This document shows positions 33,082 to 46,534 of a DNA stretch of 64,000 nt, piece after piece. The first letter of the stretch is position 1; every line of letters begins with the position of its first letter. A program made the position numbers and the translations under genes. The DNA is from Alkalihalobacillus sp. AL-G (GTDB taxonomy: Bacteria > Bacillota > Bacilli > Bacillales > Fictibacillaceae). The notes beneath the pieces are model-generated. The model saw nothing but the letters and a program-made list of their open reading frames with translations. It made no database searches and was not told where the DNA came from. Where the stretch lies: assembly GCF_030643805.1 (NCBI RefSeq), contig NZ_CP094656.1, positions 3,596,001-3,660,000 on the forward strand, read 5' to 3'.

Positions 33082-33933
33082 CTAGGCTGCGTTAAGAAGA
33101 TGATCTCTGTATTGAACGGGGGTCATCTTTTTCATATTCCATTGGTATCTATAGGAGTTGTAGTATTTAATGGCAGTTTTTACTTCCCGTTTAAGATCTT
33201 TCAGTGTTTTACAGGATTTTATTTCAGCTAAATCTTTGAAATGACCAAAAAAGGATTCCTGTGGGGCGTTGTCCCAACAATTCCCCCTTCTGGACATGGA
33301 CTGGCCCAGTCGATGTTTCTTCACCAACTTTTGATATACAGGGCTGGTATAATGACTCCCTTGATCAGAATGGATGTAGGCTCCTTTAGCCAGTTTAACC
33401 TTCCTATTCTTCTTTAACTTCTTAAGCGTGTCCATAGCGATGTCGAGCGTAATTCGATCCGAAACATTATGGGCCAATACTTCATTGGTAGAGGCATCTA
33501 TAATGGTTGATAAATAAGCCCTTTCCCCTTTCCCGAAGTAGAGATATGTGATGTCTGTAAGCAGCACCTTATAAGGTACTTCCTGTTTGAACTCTCTGTT
33601 AAGCTGGTTCGAAACGACTTTGTGCTCCTGGGTGGCTTTCATAATACGCTTGTAAGGATTCGCTCTCCGGATAGGACATACAATGCCATACTTGTTCATG
33701 ACTCTCCCGATTCTTTTAAGGTTATAGACAATATTAAATTGACCTGCCAGTATCATTTTAATTTGGCGGGCTCCTTTTTTACGGTTCTTAAAGTGAAAGG
33801 CTTTGAGAATAACATCCCGGACAACTTCATCCTTTTTCTCTTTTTCCCTTCTTCGCTTTACTTGTTTCGCTGAAAAATAGTTATAGTAGCCTTGACGAGA
33901 TACGCCTGCAGATTTACAAAGGTAAGTGATCAT
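33082..33933 (-). CDS. IS3-family transposase OrfB (DDE)
   Basis: This is the 283-residue catalytic part of the OrfAB transposase. DDE residues are visible in VLLTDITYLYFG, YIHSDQGSHYTSPVYQ and NCWDNAPQESFFGHFKD. The same frame extends upstream to the orfA overlap (KEKELILSADQKFVLIRYVI), so the natural product is an OrfA-OrfB fusion made by -1 frameshifting at AAAGAAAAAG near 34005. No internal stop is seen, so this copy may be active. Confidence 0.9.
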   Translation of the reverse strand: MITYLCKSAGVSRQGYYNYFSAKQVKRRREKEKKDEVVRDVILKAFHFKNRKKGARQIKMILAGQFNIVYNLKRIGRVMNKYGIVCPIRRANPYKRIMKATQEHKVVSNQLNREFKQEVPYKVLLTDITYLYFGKGERAYLSTIIDASTNEVLAHNVSDRITLDIAMDTLKKLKKNRKVKLAKGAYIHSDQGSHYTSPVYQKLVKKHRLGQSMSRRGNCWDNAPQESFFGHFKDLAEIKSCKTLKDLKREVKTAIKYYNSYRYQWNMKKMTPVQYRDHLLNAA

Positions 33934-33998
33934 GTTTTTTAACTTATATTTCTCAATGACGTATCGAATGAGGACGAACTTCTGATCAGCTGATAAGA

Positions 33999-34418
33999 TC
34001 AGTTCTTTTTCTTTAGCCCCCTTTCGGCGAACTTTATCTTTTTTAGCAATTCGTTCTCTGCTTTCAATAAATTATTTTCCGCCTCTAACCTTGCATATTT
34101 TTCTTCATTGGAAAGTTCTCTTTTCCTTGGTCTTCCTGATTGTCCTCTTCTTGCATCCTGAAGTCCCAGTGCTCCATTTTTACGATAGGCTTTCCCCCAC
34201 CTTTCAGCAGAACATTTAATACGTCTAGTTCCAATAATCTCTGTATCAAACCCGTACTCTTCAAAAATCTCTCTAGAGAATTTCCCACGTTCCTTTTGAA
34301 CAATAAACAGCTGCTTGAATTCATCAGTATAGATGATGGCCTTTGAAGTAACGGACTTAACATAAGGATTTTTTGATAATAGTTCGATCTCTTTTTTTGT
34401 GAAGCATTTTTTACTCAT
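33999..34418 (-). CDS. IS3-family transposase OrfA (HTH)
   Basis: A 139-residue DNA-binding protein with a helix-turn-helix region and a basic linker (ARRGQSGRPRKRELSNEEKY). A C-terminal leucine zipper, LEAENNLLKAENELLKKI, mediates OrfA/OrfAB oligomerisation. It ends just after the slippery A-rich sequence that gives access to orfB. Confidence 0.88.
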   Translation of the reverse strand: MSKKCFTKKEIELLSKNPYVKSVTSKAIIYTDEFKQLFIVQKERGKFSREIFEEYGFDTEIIGTRRIKCSAERWGKAYRKNGALGLQDARRGQSGRPRKRELSNEEKYARLEAENNLLKAENELLKKIKFAERGLKKKN

Positions 34419-34548
34419 GTGTGTTCTCCCATCCCATTTTTCACTCTAATTGTACACAAAAAGACCCTGCAGAGTAGACCTTTTTTAATGTGTCTACTCT
34501 ACAGGGTACAGATTAATTAAGAGCCAATCCCTTATTTTTATACTTTTT

Positions 34549-35127
34549 CTATTCGATATCAGGAGCGATCAGTCCGTATTTACCATCTTTTCGTTTGTAC
34601 ACGACGTTCGTTGCACCTGAATCAGCATGTGAAAAGACGAAGAAATTATGACCGAGCATATCCATCTGGAGAATCGCTTCCTGGGTGTCCATTGGTTTTA
34701 GATCAAAACGCTTTTGACGGACAACCTGGAAATCATCCTCATCTTCTTCCTCTTCCTCTAAAACAGTCGTCGTTGTAGGTGCAGCACTTCCATTCCCATT
34801 TGCAAACGCGAATTTTATTGCACCACCCTGCCGGAACTTGCGGTTTACTTTCGTTTTATACTTACGGATTTGTCGCTCTAATTTTTCAACGACCAAATCA
34901 ATGGCAGCATACATGTCGTCATGCGTTTCTTCCGCTCGAAGCAATAAGCCCGGCATCGGAATCGTAACCTCGACTAGCTGCTCATTATTGTACACCTTTA
35001 GGTTGATATAAACATCTGAATTCGGAGTTCCATCAAAATAACGCTCTAGCTTTTTCACTTTCTTTTCTGCGTAACTTCTTAAAGCAGAAGTCACCTCAAT
35101 GTTCTCTCCACGAATATTAAAATTCAT
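34549..35127 (-). CDS. hpf: Long-form ribosome hibernation promoting factor
   Basis: Long HPF (YvyD) dimerises 70S ribosomes into inactive 100S particles during stress and stationary phase. In the 192-residue protein the N-terminal S30AE domain (about 1-100: RSYAEKKVKKLERYFD, DDMYAAIDLVVEKLERQIRK) binds the 30S subunit. An acidic linker (LEEEEEDEDDF) leads to the C-terminal dimerisation domain (about 133-190: RFDLKPMDTQEAILQMDMLG). AGGAGG precedes the ATG. A sigma-B promoter is upstream. The IS element lies 38 bp past the stop and may have displaced its terminator. Confidence 0.96.
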   Translation of the reverse strand: MNFNIRGENIEVTSALRSYAEKKVKKLERYFDGTPNSDVYINLKVYNNEQLVEVTIPMPGLLLRAEETHDDMYAAIDLVVEKLERQIRKYKTKVNRKFRQGGAIKFAFANGNGSAAPTTTTVLEEEEEDEDDFQVVRQKRFDLKPMDTQEAILQMDMLGHNFFVFSHADSGATNVVYKRKDGKYGLIAPDIE

Positions 35128-35165
35128 GCAAAACTCCTCCTTTCGGTGTTTATATATATTTCTCT

Positions 35166-35192
35166 ATACCCCTTAACAATTCCTTCATAAAC
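35166..35192 (-). promoter_or_regulatory. Sigma-B (and possibly overlapping sigma-H) promoter of hpf
   Basis: On the minus strand GTTTAT (35187-35192) and GGGTAT (35166-35171) are 15 nt apart, fitting GTTT-N12-15-GGGTAT of sigma-B. An AGGAATT followed by AGAAAT overlaps and resembles sigma-H. yvyD of B. subtilis is known to use both. Confidence 0.75.
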
Positions 35193-35420
35193 GTAAAATT
35201 CTCGTAAAAATTGCGACAATATTTTTAAGATTCAGTTTTTTAGGTCGAGAGCACGCTAAGTATGGAATTATAAGGGGAGAAAGAACGATTCCATGTCCCT
35301 GATTAGACATGTTACTTAAAGGATTCGACAATGCTTGAAGTGTGTTGGGGAGGACGTTATTACCAGATTGATTTCTACCTTCGATCAAGGAATTCCAGGT
35401 ACCGAAAAACATTTAGCCTT

Positions 35421-35466
35421 GTAAAAAAACAAATCCCGCTCCTCGGTATAAGAAGCGGGGGGATTG
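35421..35466 (-). terminator. Terminator of the cold-shock gene
   Basis: On the minus strand CCCCGCTTC and GAGGAGCGGG pair and are followed by ATTTGTTTTTTT. Confidence 0.8.
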
Positions 35467-35499
35467 CTTTTAATTCAAACCCTCAAAAAGGAATGTGAA

Positions 35500-35697
35500 T
35501 TAAAGCTTTGTTACGTTCGCAGCTTGAGGTCCGCGATTTCCTTCAACTACTTCAAACTCCACGTCTTGGCCTTCTTCAAGAGTCTTGAAGCCTTCAGAGC
35601 TGATTGCAGAGTAGTGTACGAATACGTCGTCTTGTCCGTCAACTTCGATGAAACCGAAGCCCTTCTCTGCGTTAAACCATTTTACTTTTCCTTGCAT
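35500..35697 (-). CDS. Cold-shock protein (CspA family)
   Basis: A 65-residue single OB-fold nucleic-acid chaperone. RNP1 is KGFGFIEV and RNP2 is VFVHYSAI; the usual N-terminus is [13 protein letters not shown]. The ATG at 35695-35697 gives the standard family start; an in-frame GTG three codons earlier has no usable site. It acts as an RNA chaperone and transcription antiterminator at low temperature. A sigma-A promoter and a roughly 50-nt leader with a small TGTGGA/TCCACA hairpin precede it. Confidence 0.95.
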
Positions 35698-35751
35698 GTA
35701 ATTCACATTCCTTTCGTATTAAAAAAATCATGTGGAAAAATCCACAATAAA

Positions 35752-35781
35752 AGTATACAACGGTACAACCTTGAGAGTCAA
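35752..35781 (-). promoter_or_regulatory. Sigma-A promoter of the cold-shock gene
   Basis: TTGACT (35776-35781) and TATACT (35752-35757) on the minus strand with an 18-nt spacer. Confidence 0.8.
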
Positions 35782-36174
35782 CAATATGAATATGAATAGT
35801 CATAAAGCCGTAATTACTGACATTTTTCGATAAAATCAGTGCTCTTTCCTTACTACTTTATCCACCCTTTTTACCGTATTTTCAACCCATTTATTTGGTC
35901 GATTTGGTCCAGTCAAGTGGTCAATCAACAATAGCCTTTGATCTTAACGAACAGCCAAAAATCTAATTCAGCTTGCATAACGTTTGGTCCATTTCAATTG
36001 GAAAAACCAAGGTGTGCACACGTGTTACATTTTTCATTTTTGCACATCATCGATTTTTTATACGTATTTTCGTCCATTTTTTTAAAATTCAATTATCTAG
36101 TCATTAAAATAATGAAATACGATAATAATGAAACAAAGGCTTGTTAAACCTTAATAAGAAAAATTTGCAACCAC
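35782..36174. other. AT-rich intergenic region
   Basis: No gene is supported. The words TTTGGTC and GGTCC recur between 35895 and 35995, but I see no defined repeat. Confidence 0.5.
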
Positions 36175-36212
36175 ACAAAAAAGACCAACTCAGCAATATA
36201 AACGAGTCAGTC
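36175..36212 (-). terminator. Terminator of the flaG-fliDST operon
   Basis: GACTGACTC and GAGTTGGTC pair on the minus strand and are followed by TTTTTTGTG. Confidence 0.8.
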
Positions 36213-36247
36213 TGTTGATATAATATATAAAGATGAAATATTATCTT

Positions 36248-36598
36248 CTATTTCCTTTTATCCAAGAACATACCGTCCGCCCTTGCAGATTGATATGGAT
36301 TAGAGTATTTGGTATTGTTTGTTTTTTTCATCTTAATTTGTTGGACCTGTGTCTTGATCCGGGTCATTTGTTGATCCAAATATGGTTGGATCGACTCATT
36401 GATTTGCACGAGTTGCTGACCTATTTCCATTTCGTCTTTAGAGTAGTCACCTGTGAGCTGTTCGATAAGCTTTTGACGTGTTTCTAAGTGCCGACCCAGC
36501 TCTTCTAGATACTCATCAGGCGACTCATCCGGCAAACCATTTTTCACATGGTCATAAAGTTCCTCCGTTTGCTTTAACAATGCTTGCACGGAACTCAT
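36248..36598 (-). CDS. fliT: Flagellar chaperone FliT
   Basis: A 116-residue helical protein in the FliT position, the export chaperone for the filament cap FliD. It is rich in amphipathic helix (VQALLKQTEELYDHVKNGL, LGRHLETRQKLIEQL, LVQINESIQPYLDQQM) and ends in a lysine-rich tail. ATG at 36596-36598 overlaps the fliS stop (TAATG). FliT sequences diverge widely, so the call rests mainly on size, helix pattern and position. Confidence 0.8.
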   Translation of the reverse strand: MSSVQALLKQTEELYDHVKNGLPDESPDEYLEELGRHLETRQKLIEQLTGDYSKDEMEIGQQLVQINESIQPYLDQQMTRIKTQVQQIKMKKTNNTKYSNPYQSARADGMFLDKRK

Positions 36599-36999
36599 TA
36601 GGCCTGGCCACCTGCTCCATAGTTTGCTTTTCGGTTCATTTGGATTACCTGTTTCCATGTATCGCGAAACTCAATGGTTAACCCCTCGACCTCTTCAATA
36701 ATCGAAATATCACTTTTTATATTTGCTTCTACTAGGCGACGGTTCATGTAATCATACATTTGCAGCATCTGTTCTCCAACGGCTACTTCGGTATTCAATG
36801 TGACCATCAATTCTTGGATGATTTTTTGCGCCTTGATCAGGTTAGTGTTCTTATCTTCGGTCTTGTTATCCTGAATTGCCGTTTTCGCTTGTTTTAAAAA
36901 TTTCAAACAACCGTTATAGAGCATTAGAGTTAGTTCACCAGGCGAGGCTGTTCCTACACTATTTTGTTGATACGCTTTGTATGGATTGTTTAGAGACAT
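36598..36999 (-). CDS. fliS: Flagellin export chaperone FliS
   Basis: FliS binds the flagellin C-terminus and prevents early polymerisation in the cytoplasm. The 133-residue product has the family N-terminus NPYKAYQQNSVGTASPGELT, then LMLYNGCLKFLKQAKTAI and IIQELMVTLNTEVAVGEQML. It lies 43 nt after fliD and is translationally coupled to fliT. The FliW-CsrA control of flagellin depends on FliS-assisted Hag secretion in B. subtilis. Confidence 0.96.
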   Translation of the reverse strand: MSLNNPYKAYQQNSVGTASPGELTLMLYNGCLKFLKQAKTAIQDNKTEDKNTNLIKAQKIIQELMVTLNTEVAVGEQMLQMYDYMNRRLVEANIKSDISIIEEVEGLTIEFRDTWKQVIQMNRKANYGAGGQA

Positions 37000-37041
37000 C
37001 TTCGTTTAAACAACTCCCTGTAAAGTAGTTGCGGCATTCCT

Positions 37042-38640
37042 TTAACCGCCGAATTGTTTCATTAAATACATTGATTGCTGGTTCATACGGTTAATCGCTT
37101 TTTCCATTGCGGTGAATTGTCGCCAATAGCGATCTTCAATGTCAGTTAGACGCCGCTCAAAAGTGTAAATTTCGTCCTCAATTTCCTCAATGTTTCGACC
37201 CATCGTAAATTGTTCGTTTGTTTCTAAAGAGTTGCCTGCTTTCGCTTCAATTTTACCCATCGTTTCAGAAATGGAATCCCGCAGCCGACGCGCAATTCCT
37301 TTTTCCGCGTCTGTTGTTCCATCACTCATGAACAATTCATATACTGCATCAGGATCTGCCTCAATTGCTTCCCTTAGCTTACTTTCATTGATTATAAGCT
37401 TCCCGCGGTCTTTATAATTACTTGAAGTTTCAATGCCGATTTCCGCTAACTGGTTGAAATCAGGAGAAACGGTCGTACTATTGACTGGTGAATAAAGATC
37501 CATACGCATTGAATTCAAGCCACCGGAAAGAATCGGATCACTTCTCAGCATTCCGCTCATTGCTTTTTCTTCCCACAGTTCGATTTCATTATCACTCAGA
37601 TCTTCACGCTGTTTATCTGTTAAAGGAGGGAAGTCACGATAGCGCTCTTCACTTAGCTCACCATTAACCTTATCAATTGTTTCATTATATTTATCCACAA
37701 ATTGCACGATTGAATCCAAAATCGTGTCTGAATCCTGAGTAACAGAAATGTTTGCCGAACCTATCCCATTTAACGTATACGAAACATCATTGATCTCAAA
37801 CGTGTTCGTCTTACGGCTCGTGGCGAATCCGTTGTATTCAAACTGAGCATCGAGACCGGCTGTTTTGATTGCTCCATCCGTTCCATCTATAGTGCCGCTC
37901 AGGTTTGTATCTCCTAACTCATAACCTGCCGACGCGTTTGAAAAACCAAGTGCACTGAAAAAATCAGCTGTAGTGGTCGCATCTGCAGTCCCATCATTTG
38001 TAATCGAAAGCTTTGCACCGCTTCCGGTATCCTTCATGGTCAATACGACTTTGTTCGTTTCAGAATCGTAGAACGCTGATACCCCGAGATCCGTGTGGGA
38101 ATTGATTTTCGACATCACGTCTTTAATGGAATCTGTTGTAGGATCAACCGCGATTGTGATATCACTCGCTTGTGACTCCCCTGGTTTTATGACGCTTAAT
38201 TTCAGGTTAAAACCAGTCGTAAACGCTTGACCGCCACTAAACGTGACCTGGTCTAGATTCGTATCTCCATCAACTGCATTACCATTATTATCGGTTACTG
38301 CTGTTTCTGAATTGTACATTGCAGCCTTTGCAAGCTGTGTTACATTGATTGTTGTTGTCGTATTCGTTGCGGTACTGCCAGCGGTCGCGGTTACAGCAGC
38401 TTCATTGGAGCTGGTTACCGATTTCGTTAAATACGTGCTTTGACGGAAGATTCCATCAAAGATTGAATTATCAAGATCCCGGAGCAGCATATTCATTTCA
38501 CGATAATCATCACGTTTCCAAACTAAACGTTGCATTTCTTGTTCCATTTTATCAAGCGGAATACGTTCTGCTTTCATCAGGTCACTGACAAGTTTATCAA
38601 TATCCATCCCGCTCGCAAGTCCACCAATTCGCATTTCCAT
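37042..38640 (-). CDS. fliD: Flagellar filament capping protein FliD (HAP2)
   Basis: FliD forms the cap under which flagellin subunits fold. The 532-residue protein has the N-terminal IGGLASGMDIDKLVSDLMKA and variable middle domains. The C-terminal coiled coil (AKAGNSLETNEQFTMGRNIE, then RLTDIEDRYWRQFTAMEKAI) is typical of FliD_C. ATG at 38638-38640 was chosen because AGAGGTG lies 6 nt upstream. It follows flaG by 11 nt and is expressed from the flaG promoter. Confidence 0.96.
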   Translation of the reverse strand: MEMRIGGLASGMDIDKLVSDLMKAERIPLDKMEQEMQRLVWKRDDYREMNMLLRDLDNSIFDGIFRQSTYLTKSVTSSNEAAVTATAGSTATNTTTTINVTQLAKAAMYNSETAVTDNNGNAVDGDTNLDQVTFSGGQAFTTGFNLKLSVIKPGESQASDITIAVDPTTDSIKDVMSKINSHTDLGVSAFYDSETNKVVLTMKDTGSGAKLSITNDGTADATTTADFFSALGFSNASAGYELGDTNLSGTIDGTDGAIKTAGLDAQFEYNGFATSRKTNTFEINDVSYTLNGIGSANISVTQDSDTILDSIVQFVDKYNETIDKVNGELSEERYRDFPPLTDKQREDLSDNEIELWEEKAMSGMLRSDPILSGGLNSMRMDLYSPVNSTTVSPDFNQLAEIGIETSSNYKDRGKLIINESKLREAIEADPDAVYELFMSDGTTDAEKGIARRLRDSISETMGKIEAKAGNSLETNEQFTMGRNIEEIEDEIYTFERRLTDIEDRYWRQFTAMEKAINRMNQQSMYLMKQFGG

Positions 38641-38651
38641 TCCAATCACCT

Positions 38652-39002
38652 CTATATCTTTTCGTCTACAACAATCCCGATCAATTCTGCCATCGCCGCA
38701 TACATATCTAAAAACTTTTTATTTGGAATTTCTCGAATGACTTCCTTCGTCTGGTCATCAACAATTTGTACATAATACCGATTTAACTTCTCATGGAGCT
38801 TATAATTCAAGGATGTATTCATAGGTATCAGGAATTCATTTAATGTCTTCACCTTGTTGAGCAGTTCTTCCTTCGTAACTGGTTTTTCTGCATTCTGTTC
38901 AAGATTCTTATTACCTTGGAGAACTTCGACTTTTGAAGATTCAACCTTTCTACTCTCAACAACAGATACTGATGATGAAGATCCAACCTTTCCTACATTC
39001 AT
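38652..39002 (-). CDS. flaG: FlaG family flagellar protein (YvyC)
   Basis: A 116-residue protein with a low-complexity N-terminus rich in Ser and Val. The conserved FlaG domain follows (about 60-116: FLIPMNTSLNYKLHEKLNRY, YVQIVDDQTKEVIREIPNKK). FlaG proteins influence filament length, by an unclear mechanism. It is the first gene of flaG-fliD-fliS-fliT. GGAGGAG lies 6 nt upstream of the ATG. Confidence 0.92.
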   Translation of the reverse strand: MNVGKVGSSSSVSVVESRKVESSKVEVLQGNKNLEQNAEKPVTKEELLNKVKTLNEFLIPMNTSLNYKLHEKLNRYYVQIVDDQTKEVIREIPNKKFLDMYAAMAELIGIVVDEKI

Positions 39003-39038
39003 ACCTGCTCCTCCTACACTTTAAATTGTCTATACCTT

Positions 39039-39064
39039 TTATCGGTTGAACCGAAAATGTTTTA
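39039..39064 (-). promoter_or_regulatory. Probable sigma-D promoter of flaG-fliDST
   Basis: On the minus strand TAAA (39061-39064) and ACCGATAA (39039-39046) are 14 nt apart, close to the sigma-D consensus TAAA-N15-GCCGATAT. Confidence 0.55.
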
Positions 39065-39073
39065 AATGAAAAG

Positions 39074-39106
39074 ACAAAAAAAGACGGACTTTTCCAAAAG
39101 CCGCCT
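39074..39106 (-). terminator. Minus-strand terminator upstream of flaG
   Basis: GGCGGCTTTT and AAAAGTCCGTC pair on the minus strand and are followed by TTTTTTTGTC. No minus-strand gene precedes it until csrA at 42.7 kb. It may be the old hag-side terminator from before the hag block lay on the plus strand. Confidence 0.65.
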
Positions 39107-39130
39107 TAATAATTTATTTTCTACATATAT

Positions 39131-39183
39131 AGGAAGTTCGACTGAATTCACCATATCCTGTGATAACGTCGAACTGACTAACG
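39131..39183 (+). repeat. Hairpin repeat shared with the 6.7-kb MITE
   Basis: GAAGTTCGACT, then ATCCTGTGA, then AACGTCGAACTGACT match the interior of the element at 6708-6760. GTTCGAC/GTCGAAC form a stem. The GTTCAAAAAG ends are absent. Confidence 0.6.
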
Positions 39184-39261
39184 TCCTAATAGCTTAATGC
39201 TTTTTTGGTGTCTTCATAAACAAAACAGTGTTTTATTTTTTTATTTTTTAAATCAAAGGTA

Positions 39262-39288
39262 TAAAACATTTGTTATTTTAGCCGATAT
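39262..39288 (+). promoter_or_regulatory. Consensus sigma-D promoter for the second csrA and hag
   Basis: TAAA at 39262-39265, a 15-nt spacer and GCCGATAT at 39281-39288 give a perfect match to the B. subtilis sigma-D (FliA-type) consensus. It lies 31 nt before the start of the small csrA-like gene. Confidence 0.92.
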
Positions 39289-39318
39289 AAAATTTGAATC
39301 ATCAAGGAGGATGGTTTA

Positions 39319-39480
39319 ATGGCTCTAGTGATAGGCAGAAAACCCGGGGAATCTATCATCATCGACGGAAACATAAAGATCACTGTCATTAAGACAGAGG
39401 ATAGTATGTTACGTCTAAAGATCGATGCACCAAAGAATGTTCCAATCGTCAGAGAGGAACTCACTAAGAAAGAACATTAG
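39319..39480 (+). CDS. Second, short CsrA-family protein (53 aa)
   Basis: The product begins MALVIGRKPGESIIIDGNIK and continues ITVIKTEDSMLRLKIDAPKN, then VPIVREELTKKEH. It matches CsrA along its whole core: the N-terminal strand with RKPGESI, the IDAPK turn, and VREE, whose Arg45 corresponds to the RNA-contacting Arg44. It lacks the 20-residue C-terminal tail of the canonical CsrA encoded at 42704-42937, a region tied to FliW binding. AAGGAGG lies 8 nt upstream of ATG 39319. It is transcribed with hag (49 nt downstream) from the sigma-D promoter. Likely role: an RNA-binding regulator of hag or another flagellar mRNA, inferred only. Confidence 0.88.
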   Translation: MALVIGRKPGESIIIDGNIKITVIKTEDSMLRLKIDAPKNVPIVREELTKKEH

Positions 39481-39519
39481 AAACATACGGACGTGTTTCT
39501 AAAAAACATAACATGGAGG
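39481..39519 (+). promoter_or_regulatory. hag leader: hairpin-displayed GGA and GGAGG, probable CsrA target
   Basis: AAACAT (39481-39486) and GTGTTT (39493-39498) pair and present ACGGAC in the loop. The hag Shine-Dalgarno GGAGG is at 39515-39519, 10 nt before the ATG. A loop GGA plus an SD-embedded GGA is the dual-site layout by which CsrA represses hag in B. subtilis. Confidence 0.65.
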
Positions 39520-39529
39520 TAATTTAAAA

Positions 39530-40342
39530 ATGAGAATTAATCACAACATTGCAGCACTTAATACGTATCGTCAATTAACAACGAACAATGCCGCGTCTTC
39601 CGAATCATTAGAAAAGCTGTCTTCTGGACTAAGAATTAACCGTGCTGGAGATGACGCAGCCGGATTAGCAATCTCCGAAAAAATGCGAGGACAAATTCGT
39701 GGACTTGAGCAAGCAACTCGTAATGCTCAGGACGGAATCTCACTTATCCAGACATCTGAAGGTGCCCTTAACGAAACACACAGCATCCTTCAACGTATGC
39801 GTGAACTTGCAGTACAATCTGCCAACGATACAAATACGGCAGATGATCGTGCAGAACTTCAAAAGGAAGTTGCATCTCTTACAGCAGAAATTACTCGAAT
39901 CGGTTCAGATACTGAGTTCAACACACAAAAATTACTTGATGGTTCATTTTCTAGTAAAGTAATTCAAATCGGTGCAAATACTGGTCAAACGTTGAACATT
40001 TCTATCAATACAATGACAGCTGGAGGATTAGGAGTTTCAGGACTTTCTATCTCCTCTCAATCAGGTGCAAACGCTGCGATTGCAACAATTGATTCAGCAA
40101 TTGCGTCAGTATCCTCTGAACGTTCTAGCCTAGGTGCTATCCAGAACCGTTTAGAGCATACAATCAATAACCTTGGAACTTCAGCTGAAAACTTGACTGC
40201 TGCGGAATCTCGTATCCGTGACGTTGATATGGCGAAGGAAATGATGTCATTCACGAAGAACAACATCCTTACACAAGCTGCCCAAGCTATGCTTGCGCAA
40301 GCTAACCAACAGCCTCAAGGCGTTCTTCAACTACTTCGTTAA
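39530..40342 (+). CDS. hag: Flagellin
   Basis: The filament subunit, 270 residues. The N-terminal D0/D1 region is [20 protein letters not shown] and [21 protein letters not shown] short variable centre (about 165-200) is rich in Ser and Gly. The C-terminal D1/D0 region has [20 protein letters not shown] and ends [10 protein letters not shown]. It lacks a large D2/D3 domain. Unlike its neighbours fliD and csrA, it is on the plus strand. The downstream Maf-type gene suggests the surface Ser/Thr residues are glycosylated. A terminator hairpin follows. Confidence 0.98.
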
Positions 40343-40376
40343 GACTAATTAAGCTTAATCGAATATATTGTATAAT

Positions 40377-40411
40377 AAAGATAGCCAATTTTTATTGGCT
40401 ATCTTTGCTTT
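40377..40411 (+). terminator. hag terminator (probably partial)
   Basis: AAAGATAGCCAAT pairs with ATTGGCTATCTTT, followed by GCTTTCT. The weak T tract could allow some read-through into the unknown gene and maf. Confidence 0.7.
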
Positions 40412-40438
40412 CTATCTCTATGATTGGAGGAAAAACTT

Positions 40439-40963
40439 GTGATACATTTAGGTACATATTCATTTAAAAAACTTCCGTCTCTAGAAAAGAACCTTCAAAC
40501 TGTCCAGCAGCATCTAACCGATAATAAATTGATTATAGTTGATGCTGAGGGAATACCACTTCCGGATTCAACGATTACCTCAAGGATTAATGATGAAGAG
40601 ACGAGCACTTTCAAAGTTAAGAGTACATTAATCATTGAACAAGAAACACTCTTAGAGGCTATTGAATACATCGATAATATAGAGCCTCAGATCGAAGTAT
40701 TACATAACTCTGATCAAGATATGATTATCAATGGTTTTGTTAACGCCATGGAATCATTGGTTTATTTAGATAAATTGGTTTCACATTTTAATATTGACAT
40801 TTCGATTGATTATAACCTGGAGAACGCCTCACAGAAAGCTTTAAAACAAGTTGAAGATGGTAACGTAGATTATCTTCTAGATCTGTTAGAATTTTCATTT
40901 ACTCCATTATTAGGGGAAATGAAAACAAAATTTCAAGAGAGGATCGTTCCTAATGGACTATGA
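40439..40963 (+). CDS. Unknown protein between hag and maf (174 aa)
   Basis: A cytosolic protein without signal peptide or membrane segment. It begins MIHLGTYSFKKLPSLEKNLQ, is mixed alpha/beta at the N-terminus (about 1-70) and mainly acidic helix after that (LLEAIEYIDNIEPQIEVLHN, DMIINGFVNAMESLVYLDKL). GTG at 40439 has GGAGG 8 nt upstream; the earlier in-frame TTG at 40424 overlaps that site. It overlaps the Maf gene by 11 nt, so translation is likely coupled and a role in flagellin glycosylation is a fair inference. I do not recognise a family. Confidence 0.75.
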   Translation: MIHLGTYSFKKLPSLEKNLQTVQQHLTDNKLIIVDAEGIPLPDSTITSRINDEETSTFKVKSTLIIEQETLLEAIEYIDNIEPQIEVLHNSDQDMIINGFVNAMESLVYLDKLVSHFNIDISIDYNLENASQKALKQVEDGNVDYLLDLLEFSFTPLLGEMKTKFQERIVPNGL

Positions 40964-42674
40964 AATCGTTACACAAACAGCGGACACAGGGGAAATCGTG
41001 TACTCCTATAAAGATTCAACCAAAAAGGTTCCGTTGAATTCCTTGTATTCACCCTCATTAGAAGCGAACCGATTCATCAAAAAATTAGATAAGAATAACC
41101 GAAAAGTGTACATATTTATCGGAATAGGCAATTCTACCCTGATTAAAAACATAATTAAGAACACGAGATCCTATATTCACTTATATATCATTGAACCATT
41201 TGAACAAGTTCTTGCAGATTCTGAATTTATTGATTTAGTTAAAACCAGCCGAAATGTCACATTCGAGTATTATAAAAATTGGTTTATGCTCGATTTTATG
41301 ACTTTCATAGAAAAGTTCAATAGCACTGATACTGAAATCATTATTCATCCTCATTATGAAAAAACAAAAACGGGTCATCTAAAAGAGATTATTAACAAAC
41401 TCAATCAAGGAATTAAATTAGTAACAATCAATAATAATACCGAGAGAAGATTTCGAAAAGATTGGATCCTAGAGCCATTATTGAATCTACAATATACGAT
41501 GGGAGCACACTCTATCAAAGAGCTTAAAGATAAATATAGAGGAAAAAGTGCTATACTGGCTGCTTCTGGCCCATCACTAAAAGAGAATATGACCTTCCTT
41601 AAGGAAGCCCAGAATTCAGCATATATATTCGCAGCTGGATCTGCTGTAAACGGATTAACGAACAATGGCATTATTCCTGATTTTGTTACAAGCTTTGACT
41701 CAGGAGATATCAATTATGACACTCACTTTAAGGAAAGTAACTATAAAGGCCCTTTGATTGCGGGTAGTGTGATTAACTCAAATATATTGAAGCATCATGA
41801 AGGACCTATTATTTATGCCCAACTTACACTTGATGACATTACAAGAAGAGTCATTAAAGATAAATATTCTTTTCCACCAGTACCCTCAGTAGCCGTTTTC
41901 ACCCTTCAAATAATGCAATTTCTGGGATTCAGCAAAATTTATTTAGTAGGCCAAGACCTTGCCTATATAAACGGAAAATATTATGCCCAGGGCGTTAATG
42001 AAACAGATGCAAGTAAAAAAGTGAATGCTGATATTACTGTAAAAAGCAATAATGGGGGCATGGTGGATACAAGCTATTCCCTTTACTCATTTTTAGAGAG
42101 TTTTGAATTTCTGATCAACCATATTGATCAAAACGAAATGACGATTTATAACACATCTAGGAATGGGGCATACATTAAAGGCACTACCTTCGTAGAACCT
42201 AATTCTATTAACATTAGTGATGAACTAGGTATAAAAGATATTGCCCTCGATCTAAAGGCAGCTCAAGCATCTGAGGCAGGGATTAACGAGGGATTGAAAA
42301 TCATTGATGAATTGGAAGAGTTTTCGGAAACATTGCACGATGCAAATAAAAGCCTTTCACGATTGAACCCTAAGGCTGTTTCAATTACAGATATTAAAAA
42401 AGTCTCGAAAATCTTTTCCACATTAAGGAATCACACAATTTTCGAGGATATCATTACACAACGAATGTCTTCAATTGTGCAACGTATTCGTAATTTATTT
42501 TTGTATAAATTAGACGACAATCAAACTACAAATGACGATCGAATCATGATGGTAGAAGAAATCCAAAGACTCGTAACCTCTTCAGAAAAATTCATTGAAT
42601 CTCTTCTTAATGATAATAGGGTTATAAAATATAAGGCTCAATATAAAGATAAACAAAACGCTAACCCAGTTTGA
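40953..42674 (+). CDS. Motility-associated factor (Maf) glycosyltransferase
   Basis: Maf proteins transfer nonulosonic acids (pseudaminic or legionaminic acid) or similar sugars to flagellin. The 573-residue product has an N-terminal domain (about 1-190) and a central MAF_flag10/DUF115 domain. Conserved motifs there are GKSAILAASGPSLKENM near 200, GIIPDFVTSFDSGD near 238 and FLGFSKIYLVGQDLAYINGK near 330. A helical C-terminal domain runs from about 420 to 560. It sits directly after hag and the unknown gene. No nonulosonic-acid synthesis genes are in this window, so the donor is unknown. Confidence 0.92.
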   Translation: MDYEIVTQTADTGEIVYSYKDSTKKVPLNSLYSPSLEANRFIKKLDKNNRKVYIFIGIGNSTLIKNIIKNTRSYIHLYIIEPFEQVLADSEFIDLVKTSRNVTFEYYKNWFMLDFMTFIEKFNSTDTEIIIHPHYEKTKTGHLKEIINKLNQGIKLVTINNNTERRFRKDWILEPLLNLQYTMGAHSIKELKDKYRGKSAILAASGPSLKENMTFLKEAQNSAYIFAAGSAVNGLTNNGIIPDFVTSFDSGDINYDTHFKESNYKGPLIAGSVINSNILKHHEGPIIYAQLTLDDITRRVIKDKYSFPPVPSVAVFTLQIMQFLGFSKIYLVGQDLAYINGKYYAQGVNETDASKKVNADITVKSNNGGMVDTSYSLYSFLESFEFLINHIDQNEMTIYNTSRNGAYIKGTTFVEPNSINISDELGIKDIALDLKAAQASEAGINEGLKIIDELEEFSETLHDANKSLSRLNPKAVSITDIKKVSKIFSTLRNHTIFEDIITQRMSSIVQRIRNLFLYKLDDNQTTNDDRIMMVEEIQRLVTSSEKFIESLLNDNRVIKYKAQYKDKQNANPV

Positions 42675-42699
42675 ATTACCAAGCTGGGTTAAATTTTTT
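42663..42699 (+). terminator. maf terminator
   Basis: AACCCAG and CTGGGTT pair across the maf stop codon, followed by AAATTTTTTG. It separates the plus-strand block from the convergent csrA. Confidence 0.75.
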
Positions 42700-42703
42700 G
42701 CAT

Positions 42704-42937
42704 TTATTTGTTATCTCTCATATCCTTCAATAACTTCTGAAGAAGGTCTGAACTTGTCGAGGCGGCATTATTATTTTCGTCTTGGATTGACAGGTATACT
42801 TCTTTTCTATGTATATCGATTTCTTTCGGGGCATTGATTCCAAGCTTGATTTGGTCACCATCAATCCCTAGTACCATAATCTCTATATCTTCCCCGATTT
42901 GGATGGATTGGTTCGGCTTCCGCGTTAAGACAAGCAT
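42704..42937 (-). CDS. csrA: Carbon storage regulator CsrA (canonical)
   Basis: This RNA-binding dimer represses hag translation by covering its Shine-Dalgarno. The 77-residue product starts [20 protein letters not shown] and includes [20 protein letters not shown] (Arg44 present) and a 20-residue helical tail ([18 protein letters not shown]). It begins immediately after the fliW stop (TAAATG), so its synthesis is coupled to its antagonist FliW. It is the last gene of the yvyF-flgM-flgN-flgKL-yviE-fliW-csrA operon. Confidence 0.96.
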
Positions 42938-43393
42938 TTATTTTTCCCCCTTTGTAGAGGTTAAAGGCTGTTGTTGAATCAGCAAGTGCTTTGTCTCATA
43001 TGCGTCATCATTTAAAACGAGCTGTTTTCCTAGATTAGCCTCGGCATTAATGATTAAAGGCGCTTTTAAGTTTGCTGTTGTTTTCTCAAATGGATCCTGA
43101 ACCGTCAAGATGACATACGTCAACACGTTTTGTTCTTTTTCAATTTTTAACTGCCTACGAATCGGATTAGGGATGTTAAATTCATAGTCTTTGAAAAATA
43201 AAAACGGAGTCGTGATTACAAACGCGAGGTCTGATGTTTCAACAGATTGTAAGATATTAAACAGGGAGTCCTCTCCGAACGGCAATATTGCGAATTTCCT
43301 TTCACCTGCAAAGCCTGGGAGCCCCTGGTCAATCGTAATTATATCGTTGTCTCTTAAATCAATGGTTCCATGGTATTTCGTTTCAATTTTCAT
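42938..43393 (-). CDS. fliW: Flagellar assembly factor FliW
   Basis: FliW binds either Hag or CsrA; when flagellin is secreted, freed FliW sequesters CsrA and hag translation resumes. The 151-residue protein has the family pattern: TIDQGLPGFAGERKFAILPF, SVETSDLAFVITTPFLFFKD, NIPNPIRRQLKIE and NLKAPLIINAEANLGKQLVL. It lies between yviE and csrA as in B. subtilis. Confidence 0.97.
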   Translation of the reverse strand: MKIETKYHGTIDLRDNDIITIDQGLPGFAGERKFAILPFGEDSLFNILQSVETSDLAFVITTPFLFFKDYEFNIPNPIRRQLKIEKEQNVLTYVILTVQDPFEKTTANLKAPLIINAEANLGKQLVLNDDAYETKHLLIQQQPLTSTKGEK

Positions 43394-43416
43394 ATGTGAT
43401 CACCACTTTTGTTTAG

Positions 43417-43971
43417 TTAGGTTACAAAATCGATCGTGAGCGAGTTTCGTTGTCGTAGAAAGGTTTCAAGGCTGCCGCGTTCATATTCCGAATGTGCTTT
43501 TTTCGGAGTTGCCTCTATAATAGGTTTATTAATCTGCCACTGGATGTTGATGTCTCCCGGCTGATAGTTTATTTTAACGCTGCCAACGGAAGGAATCCAA
43601 CCGATGTTCCATTCAAGCATTCCCCCACCCATATTTTCAACTGCCTGGCTGATGATCGGATTGCCGCTATTTTCGATTTTCATCATTTGATCACCTTGGT
43701 GGGCACGGCGTGCAATTCCAGCGAGCAATTCCTCTCGTCCTCGCCTTGCAAATTCTTCAATGCTCTCTCTCGCATTTTTGAGGTTCATGTCATTCCAAGC
43801 CTGTGTTTGGTCGATATTCAATTTTCCAGCTGTCGAATTGGTCGTCATCTTCGCTTCTGGTTGTCTGATCGTCTGCTCAGCCCGTGGCTGTTCGATCGTT
43901 TGTTTGCCTTCAGTTGTCTTCATCCCGATCAAGGCTGGCTTTGATTGCATTCGAATTTGTGGAAATTGCAC
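43417..43971 (-). CDS. yviE: YviE / DUF6470 family protein
   Basis: A 184-residue protein of unknown function conserved between flgL and fliW. It starts MQFPQIRMQSKPALIGMKT, has EQPRAE/RQPEAK repeats, the core LNIDQTQAWNDMNLKN and IARRAHQGDQMMKIENSGNP, and a beta-rich C-terminus. GTG at 43969-43971 follows GAGGTG at 6-nt spacing, and the resulting N-terminus aligns with B. subtilis YviE, so it was preferred over a TTG seven codons earlier. Confidence 0.9.
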   Translation of the reverse strand: MQFPQIRMQSKPALIGMKTTEGKQTIEQPRAEQTIRQPEAKMTTNSTAGKLNIDQTQAWNDMNLKNARESIEEFARRGREELLAGIARRAHQGDQMMKIENSGNPIISQAVENMGGGMLEWNIGWIPSVGSVKINYQPGDINIQWQINKPIIEATPKKAHSEYERGSLETFLRQRNSLTIDFVT

Positions 43972-44017
43972 GTCACTCACCTCACAACACAATAAAGTTT
44001 TTACGAGTTTGAAAAGG

Positions 44018-44099
44018 AAAAGGCTGACTCCTCATCAGGAATCATTCACCTGAATCACGTCAATTCGGTGTAAACCTGACCCTAAAGAGTCAACCTTTA
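44018..44099 (-). terminator. Long inverted repeat between flgL and yviE
   Basis: AAAGGTTGACTC and GAGTCAGCCTTTT pair on the minus strand with about 55 nt between them, followed by CCTTTTC. It could be a partial terminator that lowers yviE-fliW-csrA relative to flgKL. Confidence 0.5.
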
Positions 44100-44128
44100 T
44101 CAAATTTAGTATATTCCTGCATCAGCTT

Positions 44129-45004
44129 TTAACGTAAAAAGTCCATAAGCGTTGGTTGCATGATACGGGCACCCGAAGATAGCGCAGCACGGTGAATGCT
44201 TTCCTGAGTCTTCAAGTTCATTATCGCTTTTTCCATATCAACGTCTTCGTTGTCCGATAATACACGGGTCGCAATAACCTTCTGTTGAGATACACGTTCG
44301 GCAATCATCTCAACACGATTGTAACGTGCACCAAGCTCAGCTCGCTCATTTAAAAGGTTATCCACATGTCCATCAATTTTGCTCAAGTAATTGTTAATGG
44401 CTCCTGGTGCAGCTCCACCTTTAAGGTCTGTTACAAGGTCGTTTAGATCATCAAAAACCGCTTGCGGAAAAACGTTCTGTTGATTGATGTTAACACGCAT
44501 TTCGATTCCTTTAGAAACCTCAATATTCACCGCATTTGTATTCGTTCCAACTACGGTTCCATTTGCATCGACTGGTGGATTCACTGTATCTGTTCCGTTA
44601 AAGATGTACTTCCCTGCTACCTGAGTATTTGCAACTGAAATTAGATGATCACGGAGCTGTTCAACTTCTTCGCCGATCGCCTCACGTTGATTCCCTTCAT
44701 ACGTTCCATTACTCGCCTGTACAACCAATTCCCGTAAACGATGCATAACTTGAGTTGCCTGGTCGAGTGACTCATCTGAACTATCCATCCATTTGTACAC
44801 TTCGGATAGGTTACGGTCAAATTGATCAATTTCAGTTAAATTCGTTCGATATTCCATACCCTTCATTGCGACAACTGGATCGTCTGAAGGCCTAGTTATT
44901 CGCTTACCAGTCGCGAGCTGTTCCTGATACTTCGCCATCCGATCATAGCTCTGGCTCAAGTTCCGCAGCATATTACTCGTCAACATACCTTGAGTTACAC
45001 GCAT
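44129..45004 (-). CDS. flgL: Flagellar hook-filament junction protein FlgL (HAP3)
   Basis: FlgL joins the hook and FlgK to the filament. The 291-residue product resembles flagellin at both ends: MRVTQGMLTSNMLRNLSQSY and ATGKRITRPSDDPVVAMKGM at the N-terminus, VLSDNEDVDMEKAIMNLKTQ near the C-terminus. It is directly downstream of flgK (9-nt gap). Confidence 0.97.
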   Translation of the reverse strand: MRVTQGMLTSNMLRNLSQSYDRMAKYQEQLATGKRITRPSDDPVVAMKGMEYRTNLTEIDQFDRNLSEVYKWMDSSDESLDQATQVMHRLRELVVQASNGTYEGNQREAIGEEVEQLRDHLISVANTQVAGKYIFNGTDTVNPPVDANGTVVGTNTNAVNIEVSKGIEMRVNINQQNVFPQAVFDDLNDLVTDLKGGAAPGAINNYLSKIDGHVDNLLNERAELGARYNRVEMIAERVSQQKVIATRVLSDNEDVDMEKAIMNLKTQESIHRAALSSGARIMQPTLMDFLR

Positions 45005-45013
45005 CGCTTATCC

Positions 45014-46534
45014 CTACCTTCCTACCCGACCCATGCCGTTAATGATACGGTCGAGCATTTCATCAATCGTTGTAATGTTCCTTGCCGCTGCATTATAAGC
45101 ATGCTGGAACTGAACCATTTTCGCCATCTCTTCATCAAGTGATACACCGCTGACCGATTGTCTTCTCGCTTCAACCGATTGCTTGAGTGTTGATGCGTTA
45201 TCCATGAGACGATTAGATTGCTGGGCATCAACCGCCATTTCACCAATTACACCCTCATAAAACAACTGAACCGATGTGTCACCTGATGTAAAGGTCAACG
45301 ACTGATCCTTTACGTCCGCTAGTGCTAGCGCGTTACTCCCGTCGCCAGCAAACCCATCTCCGGAAGCTGCGATTTTATCAAGTCCATTTGGTCCCGTAAT
45401 TGCACTATCAAGCTTCATCATGCTCGCAGCCCCTGCAAAATCAGTCCCGCTGACAGGTGATGTGAAACTGAAAAAGTTACCGCCAGCATTCCCATTCAAA
45501 TCTGTACCTTGTTGATGTTGATCATTGAATGCCTTCGCAAACCGGTAGGCCATTTCATCCAAACTCGCGAGCATTTCTATGTAATCGCCTGTTTTTTTAC
45601 CGCTCGTATCTTCATATCCGTACGATTCGATCAAGCCCTTCAGTTTACCTGATGCAAAGTTTCCGATGTTTCCGGCACTTGCTCCGATCGCATATTGATC
45701 AAATGCTCCGTCAGCATCCGTATCCTTAATCGAAATTGTATCAGCCGTTAAGTTTGCTCCGTCTACTAACGTTCCGATCGAGTTTCCTGCATCATCAACG
45801 ATATCTATCGTATATTTCCCTTCTGCAACCTGTAGAGAATGCCCACCGTTCGCTACTGGTGTCACCTTTACATTCACATATTCGGAAAGCTTGTCGACCA
45901 ATAAGTCGCGTTGATCGTACAAATCATTTGGCAAATAGCCATGTGGTTCTATTTCACTGATTTGTTTGTTGATATCGTTTATTTGACTCGCAATCGAATT
46001 GATCGTTTTCACGGTAATCATCGTTTGGTTTTCTAGATCGTTCTTAACCGAACTGAGTGAGGTCGATAGGTAGCCGAAGGTATCAGCTAATGCGATTCCC
46101 CGCTGGCGGACGACCGATCGGGCGGAACCTTCCGGGTTAGCCGCTAAGTCCTGAAGTGATTGCCAGAAGCGGTCCATCGTCTTCGCAAGCCCAAAGTCTG
46201 ACGGTTCATTCATGATTTCTTCCATTTTGTGCAGCGCTTCACTGCGAGCGGTCCAGTAGCCCGATTTCGTAGTTTCGCCTCTGAACTGGATATCTAAGAA
46301 CCCTTCACGAATTCGCTGAATCGTTCCTGCTTCAACCCCTGTCCCGATCTGCCCTGGTATTTCAGGCCGGTTTCGACCTGGCGCAGGGAAAGCTCCTGTC
46401 TGTGAAAAATTGACACGCTGCCGCGAATAGCCAGGTGTGTTCGCGTTCGCAATATTATGCCCGGTCGTTCGGAGGGCGCTTTGATGGGTTCTCAAACCTC
46501 TTACTGCTGTTTCCAGTCCATGAAACGTAGACAT
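45014..46534 (-). CDS. flgK: Flagellar hook-associated protein FlgK (HAP1)
   Basis: FlgK forms the first hook-filament junction layer. The 506-residue product has the N-terminal FHGLETAVRGLRTHQSALRT and GHNIANANTPGYSRQRVNFS. A variable central domain is predicted extracellular. The C-terminus has SGVSLDEEMAKMVQFQHAYN and ITTIDEMLDRIINGMGRVGR. Length is normal. Confidence 0.97.
   Translation of the reverse strand: MSTFHGLETAVRGLRTHQSALRTTGHNIANANTPGYSRQRVNFSQTGAFPAPGRNRPEIPGQIGTGVEAGTIQRIREGFLDIQFRGETTKSGYWTARSEALHKMEEIMNEPSDFGLAKTMDRFWQSLQDLAANPEGSARSVVRQRGIALADTFGYLSTSLSSVKNDLENQTMITVKTINSIASQINDINKQISEIEPHGYLPNDLYDQRDLLVDKLSEYVNVKVTPVANGGHSLQVAEGKYTIDIVDDAGNSIGTLVDGANLTADTISIKDTDADGAFDQYAIGASAGNIGNFASGKLKGLIESYGYEDTSGKKTGDYIEMLASLDEMAYRFAKAFNDQHQQGTDLNGNAGGNFFSFTSPVSGTDFAGAASMMKLDSAITGPNGLDKIAASGDGFAGDGSNALALADVKDQSLTFTSGDTSVQLFYEGVIGEMAVDAQQSNRLMDNASTLKQSVEARRQSVSGVSLDEEMAKMVQFQHAYNAAARNITTIDEMLDRIINGMGRVGR

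Follow-up and report, generated by a model that had tools for sequence, protein, structure and literature searches.

A short CsrA gene directly upstream of flagellin in Alkalihalobacillus sp. AL-G, and its relatives on chromosomes and in phage contigs

In Alkalihalobacillus sp. AL-G, the flagellin gene hag is preceded by a gene for a short CsrA, which we call csrA2, and the two genes are apparently carried on one flagella-specific message. We analyzed a stretch of 64,000 nucleotides from this genome (the window). The sequence itself provides the csrA2 gene, a promoter match, the gene order, signs of selection, hairpins, the absence of the residue pair that contacts FliW, and a family of similar genes. 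The explanation that we favor, to which we give about an even chance, is that csrA2 and hag form a sigma-D operon in which the short CsrA would repress its own ribosome site and that of hag, independently of FliW. Judging by its relatives, csrA2 is not peculiar to this genome: it is a member of a recurrent family of short CsrAs that are linked to flagellin.

The AL-G genome (G000) is a single contig of 4.16 Mb with two CsrA matches, csrA2 and the canonical csrA, and two Flagellin_N matches, hag and FlgL, which leaves hag as the sole flagellin gene. In the window, csrA2 (39319–39480, + strand) has an ATG start, 53 codons plus a stop, and AAGGAGG upstream. After 49 nt comes hag (39530–40342, +), which encodes a flagellin of 270 amino acids with a Flagellin_N match. 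Beyond hag are a gene for a 174-amino-acid protein with no function assigned (40439–40963, +) and a gene for an MptE-like protein (40953–42674, +; 127.2 bits to the Pfam model, with a cut-off of 34.6). The latter is weakly similar to PseD, a flagellin modification protein (90.5 bits, below the NCBIfam cut-off of 670). The canonical csrA (42704–42937, −), whose product has 77 amino acids with I51 and N55 (residues counted on the sequence), and fliW (42938–43393, −) are on the other strand. The preliminary description of this DNA put this pair 3.4 kb away, which is correct from the start of csrA2 (3.2 kb edge to edge). (The window also has a Bacillaceae-1 RNA, RF01690, at 39126–39192 (+), between flaG and the csrA2 promoter, with 42.5 bits against a gathering score of 35. 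A stretch over a cold-shock gene, 35423–35812 (−), resembles the Rfam cspA thermoregulator at 60.8, below the gathering score of 78, and two adjacent open reading frames at 33082–34418 (−) are presumably an IS3-family transposase pair, judged by eye.)

The small gene beside hag, which the preliminary description had proposed from the sequence alone, is a real csrA. Its product matches the Pfam CsrA profile (PF02599) with 65.1 bits (cut-off 27, E 5e-18). It scores below the cut-offs of the NCBIfam csrA equivalogs (50.6 vs. 73 and 48.7 vs. 70.1), as expected of a divergent paralog, and it is 41% identical to the canonical CsrA of the window over 46 residues. The pN/pS of csrA2 is 0.18 in comparison with its nearest relative (L085) and 0.29 in comparison with L086, with pS around 0.7; by these ratios, csrA2 is under purifying selection. 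The Pfam match and pN/pS exclude a chance open reading frame at 39319–39480. CsrA2 is predicted to fold like CsrA: the model has a pLDDT of 90.3 and a pTM of 0.66, and its best matches in the PDB are CsrA, RsmA, and RsmE (query TM-score up to 0.84, E 7.6e-4). Arg7 and Arg45 of CsrA2 are invariant in all 25 aligned short CsrAs, and we take them to correspond to the RNA-binding residues Arg6 and Arg44 of E. coli CsrA.

Upstream of csrA2, at 39262–39288 (+), is the promoter match TAAA-N15-GCCGATAT. Scored against what we take to be the sigma-D consensus, it agrees at 12 of 12 positions, and it is the sole such match on either strand of the window, which bears out the earlier reading of a perfect sigma-D promoter before csrA2. 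Sigma-D-like sites that agree at 11 of 12 positions are found upstream of csrA in L085, L086, L087, L098, L099, and L101, as well as in L106, L107, and L129; none was found in the stretch scanned for L072 and L100. Among 33 loci with short csrA genes, 23 have a site with a score of at least 10 upstream of csrA, and none has such a site inside the gap between csrA and flagellin.

The missing C-terminal tail of CsrA2 concerns FliW. According to excerpts of PMC7829508, the interface of CsrA with FliW involves V51 and N55 in C. jejuni and I52 and N56 in G. thermodenitrificans. These residues belong to the first C-terminal helix. Among 36 canonical CsrAs, 35 have I51 and N55 and the remaining one has T51 and N55. 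Among 34 short CsrAs, none has isoleucine or valine at position 51, four have asparagine at 55, and none has the pair. CsrA2 itself ends at the place of residue 52, before the FliW-contact helix. The earlier statement that it lacks this tail thus holds, and from its sequence we expect CsrA2 to be insensitive to FliW.

We also examined the leader of hag. A hairpin at 39477–39502 (+), which overlaps the stop codon of csrA2, presents ACGGAC in its loop and is one candidate CsrA site; the Shine-Dalgarno sequence of hag, ACATGGAGG (39511–39519, +), includes GGAGG and is another. The letters of ACATGGAGG are identical in four of the six leaders of the window's clade (counting the window). A GGA hairpin with GGAGG is the same two-site plan as in B. 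subtilis, whose hag leader has two CsrA sites (PMC7652899, in part). The preliminary description had raised a brake acting on the hag leader, and a leader with this plan, in the form of candidate sites, does lie directly between csrA2 and hag. The stem was reached by none of 1,000 dinucleotide shuffles, as was also true for L086 and L101; the same test was weak or negative for L085 (76 shuffles of 1,000), L098 (215), L099 (181), L100 (98), and L072 (33). The fold of the hairpin has a z score of −2.54, with four of 200 shuffles as good. An Rfam search of positions 34000–46000 of the window gave no match on this hairpin or on the one described next.

The ribosome site of csrA2 is also in a hairpin (39294–39319, +), with AAGGAG in a loop of 6 nt, which makes it a candidate site for autoregulation by CsrA. 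This hairpin sits about where the transcript should start. The form of this hairpin was defined after seeing the window; with at least four pairs, it is present in all seven csrA genes of the window's clade (the window is counted, and two of the seven, L106 and L107, nearly duplicate each other), in 8 of the 26 csrA2 genes on chromosomes, and in none of 37 other csrA genes (36 canonical ones and L072). The divergent mobile csrA genes of L098, L099, L147, and L148 have 3, 3, 3, and 0 pairs, so none of these four qualifies. In the window and six sister loci, 57 genes have a GGA ribosome site, and just three of them have at least six pairs: csrA2 and the hag genes of two sisters, which we expect to be CsrA targets themselves. 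In its context, the window's hairpin has a fold z score of −1.83 (8 of 200 shuffles as good), with −0.08, −0.07, and −0.82 for L085, L086, and L087, so the form is conserved without being unusually stable. The placement of the csrA2 ribosome site in a GGA hairpin implies autoregulation. CsrA2 had been proposed to be produced in proportion to hag mRNA. This is too simple because CsrA2 probably limits its own synthesis, as the hairpin indicates.

Short CsrAs next to flagellin are found in other genomes. We looked at 397 genomes of the order; apart from the window's own, 42 of them have at least two CsrA matches (in some, both are within one open reading frame). We searched these 42 genomes with a profile of the short type, which means that genomes with only one csrA, a short one, would escape the search. 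A short CsrA with at least 90 bits is present in 23 of them (the copy in G303 is broken by a stop), and 21 of these have a flagellin gene downstream, no more than 420 nt away and in the same orientation. Of the other two, G051 has a convergent flagellin gene, and for G363, a pattern search of the 11.5 kb that were fetched found none. Eleven of 12 named genome loci have the same order of csrA and flagellin (several of these loci also belong to the 23-genome set); the twelfth is on a contig of 3.1 kb. (The named loci are from two Halobacillus, two Pontibacillus, Halalkalibacterium, Halalkalibacter, Paenibacillus, Clostridium, and bins of Marinisporobacter, Clostridiales (twice), and Bacillota.) A survey of csrA-hag adjacency had been suggested in the preliminary description, and these overlapping sets show that the arrangement recurs. 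Across the phylum, the type is uncommon: at E 1e-19, it turned up in 5 of 398 genomes, including the window's own. In a tree of CsrAs, the short ones and the divergent L099 are on one side (98/86) and the canonical ones and L072 are on the other; this tree has only 56 columns, many unresolved forks, and flagged long branches. Two other observations concern these loci. Two short CsrA genes lie close to each other in L042, L047, L051, L057, L061, L062, L074, and L081, mostly near a flagellin gene (in L057, they are on opposite strands). Group I introns (RF00028) lie at the ends of flagellin genes or beside them in L082, L077, L113, L035, and L110.

The flagellin leaders differ according to which csrA precedes them. 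We classified 72 leaders that were found by sequence patterns (L072 and L099 were set aside as "other," L116, a canonical csrA that the pattern had put in the wrong class, was reassigned by hand, and L098, L100, and L101 are outside the 72). Behind canonical csrA genes, all 36 distinct leaders have C at −3 and G at +2 relative to GGA. Behind chromosomal csrA2 genes (n = 28), A occupies position −3 in 22, C in 4, and T in 2, so that most of these loops have an A-G mismatch. The difference in C at −3 (4 of 28 vs. 36 of 36) has a Fisher p of 8e-14, uncorrected for kinship. All 12 loci that have both types of leader show a difference in the same direction (some of these loci are from one genus). 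In the window's own clade, the six leaders (including the window) have T three times, C twice, and A once at −3, with ACGGA in five. Specifically, the window has CAU-ACGGAC-GUG, which resembles the prophage-type leaders of L106 and L107 (CAU-ACGGAU-GUG); all six hag leaders of sister loci have CAC-AWGGAY-GUG. The conservation of loops on changing stems speaks for selection. The paired-fraction test behind this comparison overstates pairing, since stems were the basis on which the hairpins had been selected; for the stems we rely on the dinucleotide shuffles, and otherwise on the loop position.

Because the flagellin coding sequences follow the leader classes weakly, the operator tracks the neighboring csrA more than the flagellin. 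On the flagellin tree, the four leader groups require 24 changes (shuffled mean, 30.4), and the starred branches force at least 10 changes for either class of leader. A caveat is that the physical linkage of leader and csrA may contribute to the association of operator and csrA.

The gaps between csrA2 and flagellin on chromosomes have a further conserved element, CUC-A[AUC]GGA[CU]-GAG ... CUCGUCC-UUUUU. It resembles a terminator hairpin, and its 5' arm shares sequence with a small GGA hairpin that has the canonical type of loop (for instance, L076:5174–5246 (+), L082:5176–5249 (+), and L113:3875–3962 (−)). By a strict pattern, it is present in 18 of 26 gaps of up to 240 nt, and 17 of the 18 were aligned. 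It has no Rfam match in the 14 loci searched and is absent from the window. From its sequence, it could be a CsrA-dependent antitermination switch.

The closest relatives of CsrA2 in viral contigs are L085 (79% identical; contig of 124.7 kb) and L086 (73%; 99.9 kb), and both have a flagellin gene directly 3' of csrA. When more of each contig is taken in, terminase and portal genes appear around L085 and a phage-type helicase around L086. In the CsrA tree, CsrA2 groups with these two (99/93). A flagellin gene follows csrA in four of 11 different viral contigs with CsrA (L085, L086, L147, and L148), the contig of L087 ends 3' of csrA, and no flagellin gene was seen in the six viral contigs with more distant CsrAs (L088, L091–L093, L149, and L150). 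In the prophage-like loci L106 and L107, the csrA-flagellin pair is 3–5 kb from endolysin genes. The clade of chromosomal CsrA2 was not confirmed in any viral contig from 264 pattern matches. As for the flagellins, the tree groups the window's Hag with three flagellins of loci with canonical csrA (99/87); the phage flagellin of L085 joins only one set further out (97/89), and the L086 flagellin is elsewhere. These groupings differ from those of the CsrA tree, so hag and csrA2 have different nearest kin.

Plasmids also carry such pairs. Divergent csrA-flagellin pairs are found on 200 kb plasmids of Bacillus licheniformis (where virion and baseplate genes are annotated) and Bacillus halotolerans, on Bacillus phage EZ-2018a, and on a plasmid of Paenibacillus urinalis; a related csrA is on five plasmids. 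A 628 kb plasmid of Rossellomorea (L072; CP128836.1, 100803–112949) has a pair with a more canonical-looking CsrA. (This plasmid also has ftsZ, ftsL, PhoH, and DnaI genes, and its flagellin is annotated as two pieces.) PHROGs includes families that resemble CsrA (best E 5.5e-14), and the flagellin matches a family there that has no name (4.1e-65). The flagellin matches 11 phage records and 113 plasmid records. In five of six such records that we inspected, csrA is directly 5' of flagellin; one of these five, L103, has an ordinary fliW-csrA-flagellin order. The sixth, a 603 kb plasmid of Jeotgalibacillus (L102; CP009417.1, 593457–603070), has four flagellin-like genes in a row with no csrA seen beside them. 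CsrA is found in 14 phage records and in 128 plasmid records, which are mostly from Pseudomonas and among which we looked at flagellin linkage in the Rossellomorea record only. Together, the sequences suggest that flagellin genes can travel with built-in translation control.

In sister species, the native hag stands where csrA2-hag stands in AL-G. In six of the seven other genomes of the genus (loci L036–L041), fliW, csrA, and hag are consecutive on one strand, with fliD next; the seventh genome has no CsrA match. In the window, the interval between csrA and flaG instead holds csrA2, hag, the 174-amino-acid gene, and the MptE-like gene, all on the opposite strand. This suggests that an inverted cassette took the place of the native hag at this locus. 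As no remnant of the native hag was found in the window, the replacement is something we infer. We also considered whether a terminator of the lost native hag before flaG would prove the replacement, but the scanner called no minus-strand terminator there, so we gave up this line of proof. None of the seven genomes has two csrA matches (six have one and one has none), so we rejected the idea that csrA2 is a vertical paralog of the genus. As to a foreign origin, base composition gives a mixed picture: GC is low in the 174-amino-acid gene (0.33) and the MptE-like gene (0.34) compared with the window (0.41), but not in csrA2 (0.41) or hag (0.43). Around the cassette, the only flanking repeats found were direct 9–11-mers, with no inverted ones. 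Among 299 genomes searched, the 174-amino-acid protein has distant relatives in three besides its own, where they are encoded 3' of a flagellin gene; it has none in viral contigs.

Sigma-D RNA is made once the hook is complete. If csrA2 and hag share one such transcript, as we infer, then the message would appear at that stage and CsrA2 would be translated first. A CsrA2 dimer, which we predict to bind both hairpins, would bridge the hag leader hairpin and the hag Shine-Dalgarno sequence and thereby reduce translation of Hag. At a higher level, CsrA2 would also close the ribosome site of csrA2, and release by FliW would not occur. As CsrA2 would shut off its own synthesis too, flagellin output would be capped, independently of the host's FliW, which would fit a flagellin module that passes from host to host.

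Several observations weigh against this explanation: hag and csrA2 differ in their nearest kin, the shuffle test of the leader hairpin is weak or negative at five loci, and the ribosome-site hairpins of L085, L086, and L087 have ordinary fold z scores. Canonical CsrA could also serve the window's hag leader. If the leader were an ordinary hag operator on which canonical CsrA and FliW act, CsrA2 would be a passenger with targets elsewhere. The window's loop is closed by a U-G pair, which is close to the canonical C-G form, and two CsrA sites are what the B. subtilis hag leader has (PMC7652899, in part). We nevertheless think this very unlikely, given how often a short csrA is next to flagellin and that the leader operators are class-specific. 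Another reading is that CsrA2 and canonical CsrA form mixed dimers, so that one FliW-free half tunes the FliW-CsrA-Hag switch. The window's two CsrAs are similar enough in sequence (41%) to bring this to mind, and RNA binding persists in a B. subtilis CsrA heterodimer that has just one FliW site (PMC6529632, in part). But the short CsrAs are on their own side of a tree (albeit of 56 columns), and the chromosomal ones have their own class of operator, which argues for a separate function; mixed dimers seem quite improbable to us.

CsrA2 might also act in trans: a CsrA that arrives with a flagellin module or phage and is not restrained by FliW would block the resident flagellin at translation so that the filament is exchanged, and the window's resident gene would since have been lost. 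Salmonella FljA and phage TldR have such an effect by other means. We judge this unlikely, though less so than the two readings above. The csrA-flagellin pairs on phage or plasmid DNA (L085, L086, L147, L148, and L098–L101) and near endolysin genes (L106 and L107) fit with it, and both flagellin replacement by prophages and the binding of a CsrA to the 5' UTR of a flagellin gene that is also a target of the linked TldR have been published (PMC13418256, in part). However, the cognate flagellins of several modules retain a GGA hairpin in the leader, which one would expect to be lost if CsrA were purely a weapon in trans. Also, G000 has no second flagellin, and leaders for canonical CsrA have another class of loop than those of chromosomal CsrA2.

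Returning to an operon that represses itself, a broader proposal can be made, which we hold tentatively and rate at somewhat under an even chance. Phages and chromosomes of Bacillota would carry self-contained flagellin modules, each with a sigma-D promoter, an autoregulated tail-less CsrA, a matched GGA-hairpin operator, and a flagellin, beside the FliW-CsrA-Hag system or in place of it. If CsrA paralogs recognize different hairpin loops, then two flagellins in one cell could be controlled separately, and a phage could remodel the filament at the level of translation.

In the fljBA operon of Salmonella, flagellin is co-transcribed with FljA, which represses translation of the other flagellin's mRNA. 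As proposed for csrA2-hag, a flagellin and a translational repressor of flagellin share a transcript; unlike CsrA2, FljA is unrelated to CsrA and targets the mRNA of the other flagellin. In comparison with the Hag-FliW-CsrA switch of B. subtilis (as described in parts of PMC6529632 and PMC7652899), the CsrA family and a flagellin gene under sigma-D are common to both. The differences are that csrA2 is directly before hag behind the same promoter, that CsrA2 ends before the FliW-contact helix, that the ribosome site of its gene sits in a GGA hairpin, and that the nearest relatives of CsrA2 are in phage contigs. CsrR of Legionella (cited in PMC7652899, in part) is an extra CsrA copy elsewhere; like CsrA2, it and the plasmid CsrAs are CsrA paralogs, some of them on mobile DNA.

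Among the matches listed from the open-access literature (excluding preprints), no title or abstract opening mentions a flagellin-linked second CsrA of Bacillaceae or csrA-flagellin pairs of Bacillota phages. The nearest published case is Walker et al. 2026 (PMC13418256, in part), who described flagellin-remodeling prophages with TldR and fliCP as well as csrA-associated tldR loci of gut Clostridia; in Oscillibacter, the linked CsrA binds the 5' UTR of fliC, with its motif in a predicted stem-loop. The csrA2-hag module shares themes with these systems, namely a mobile flagellin gene and a linked regulator of flagellin. It differs in architecture: TldR is RNA-guided, whereas regulation by CsrA2 is proposed to be translational and within one operon.

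So far, flagellin homeostasis in Bacillota has been described as one CsrA held by one FliW. If our proposal is true, then a second CsrA that is blind to FliW and has its own class of operator would be a ready-made orthogonal switch for translation. Such a CsrA would account for the separate handling of two flagellins in one cell, and it would stand as the translational counterpart of the flagellin replacement that prophages achieve with guide RNAs. With paired regulators and hairpins already available as a natural set, the specificity of CsrA can be tested directly.
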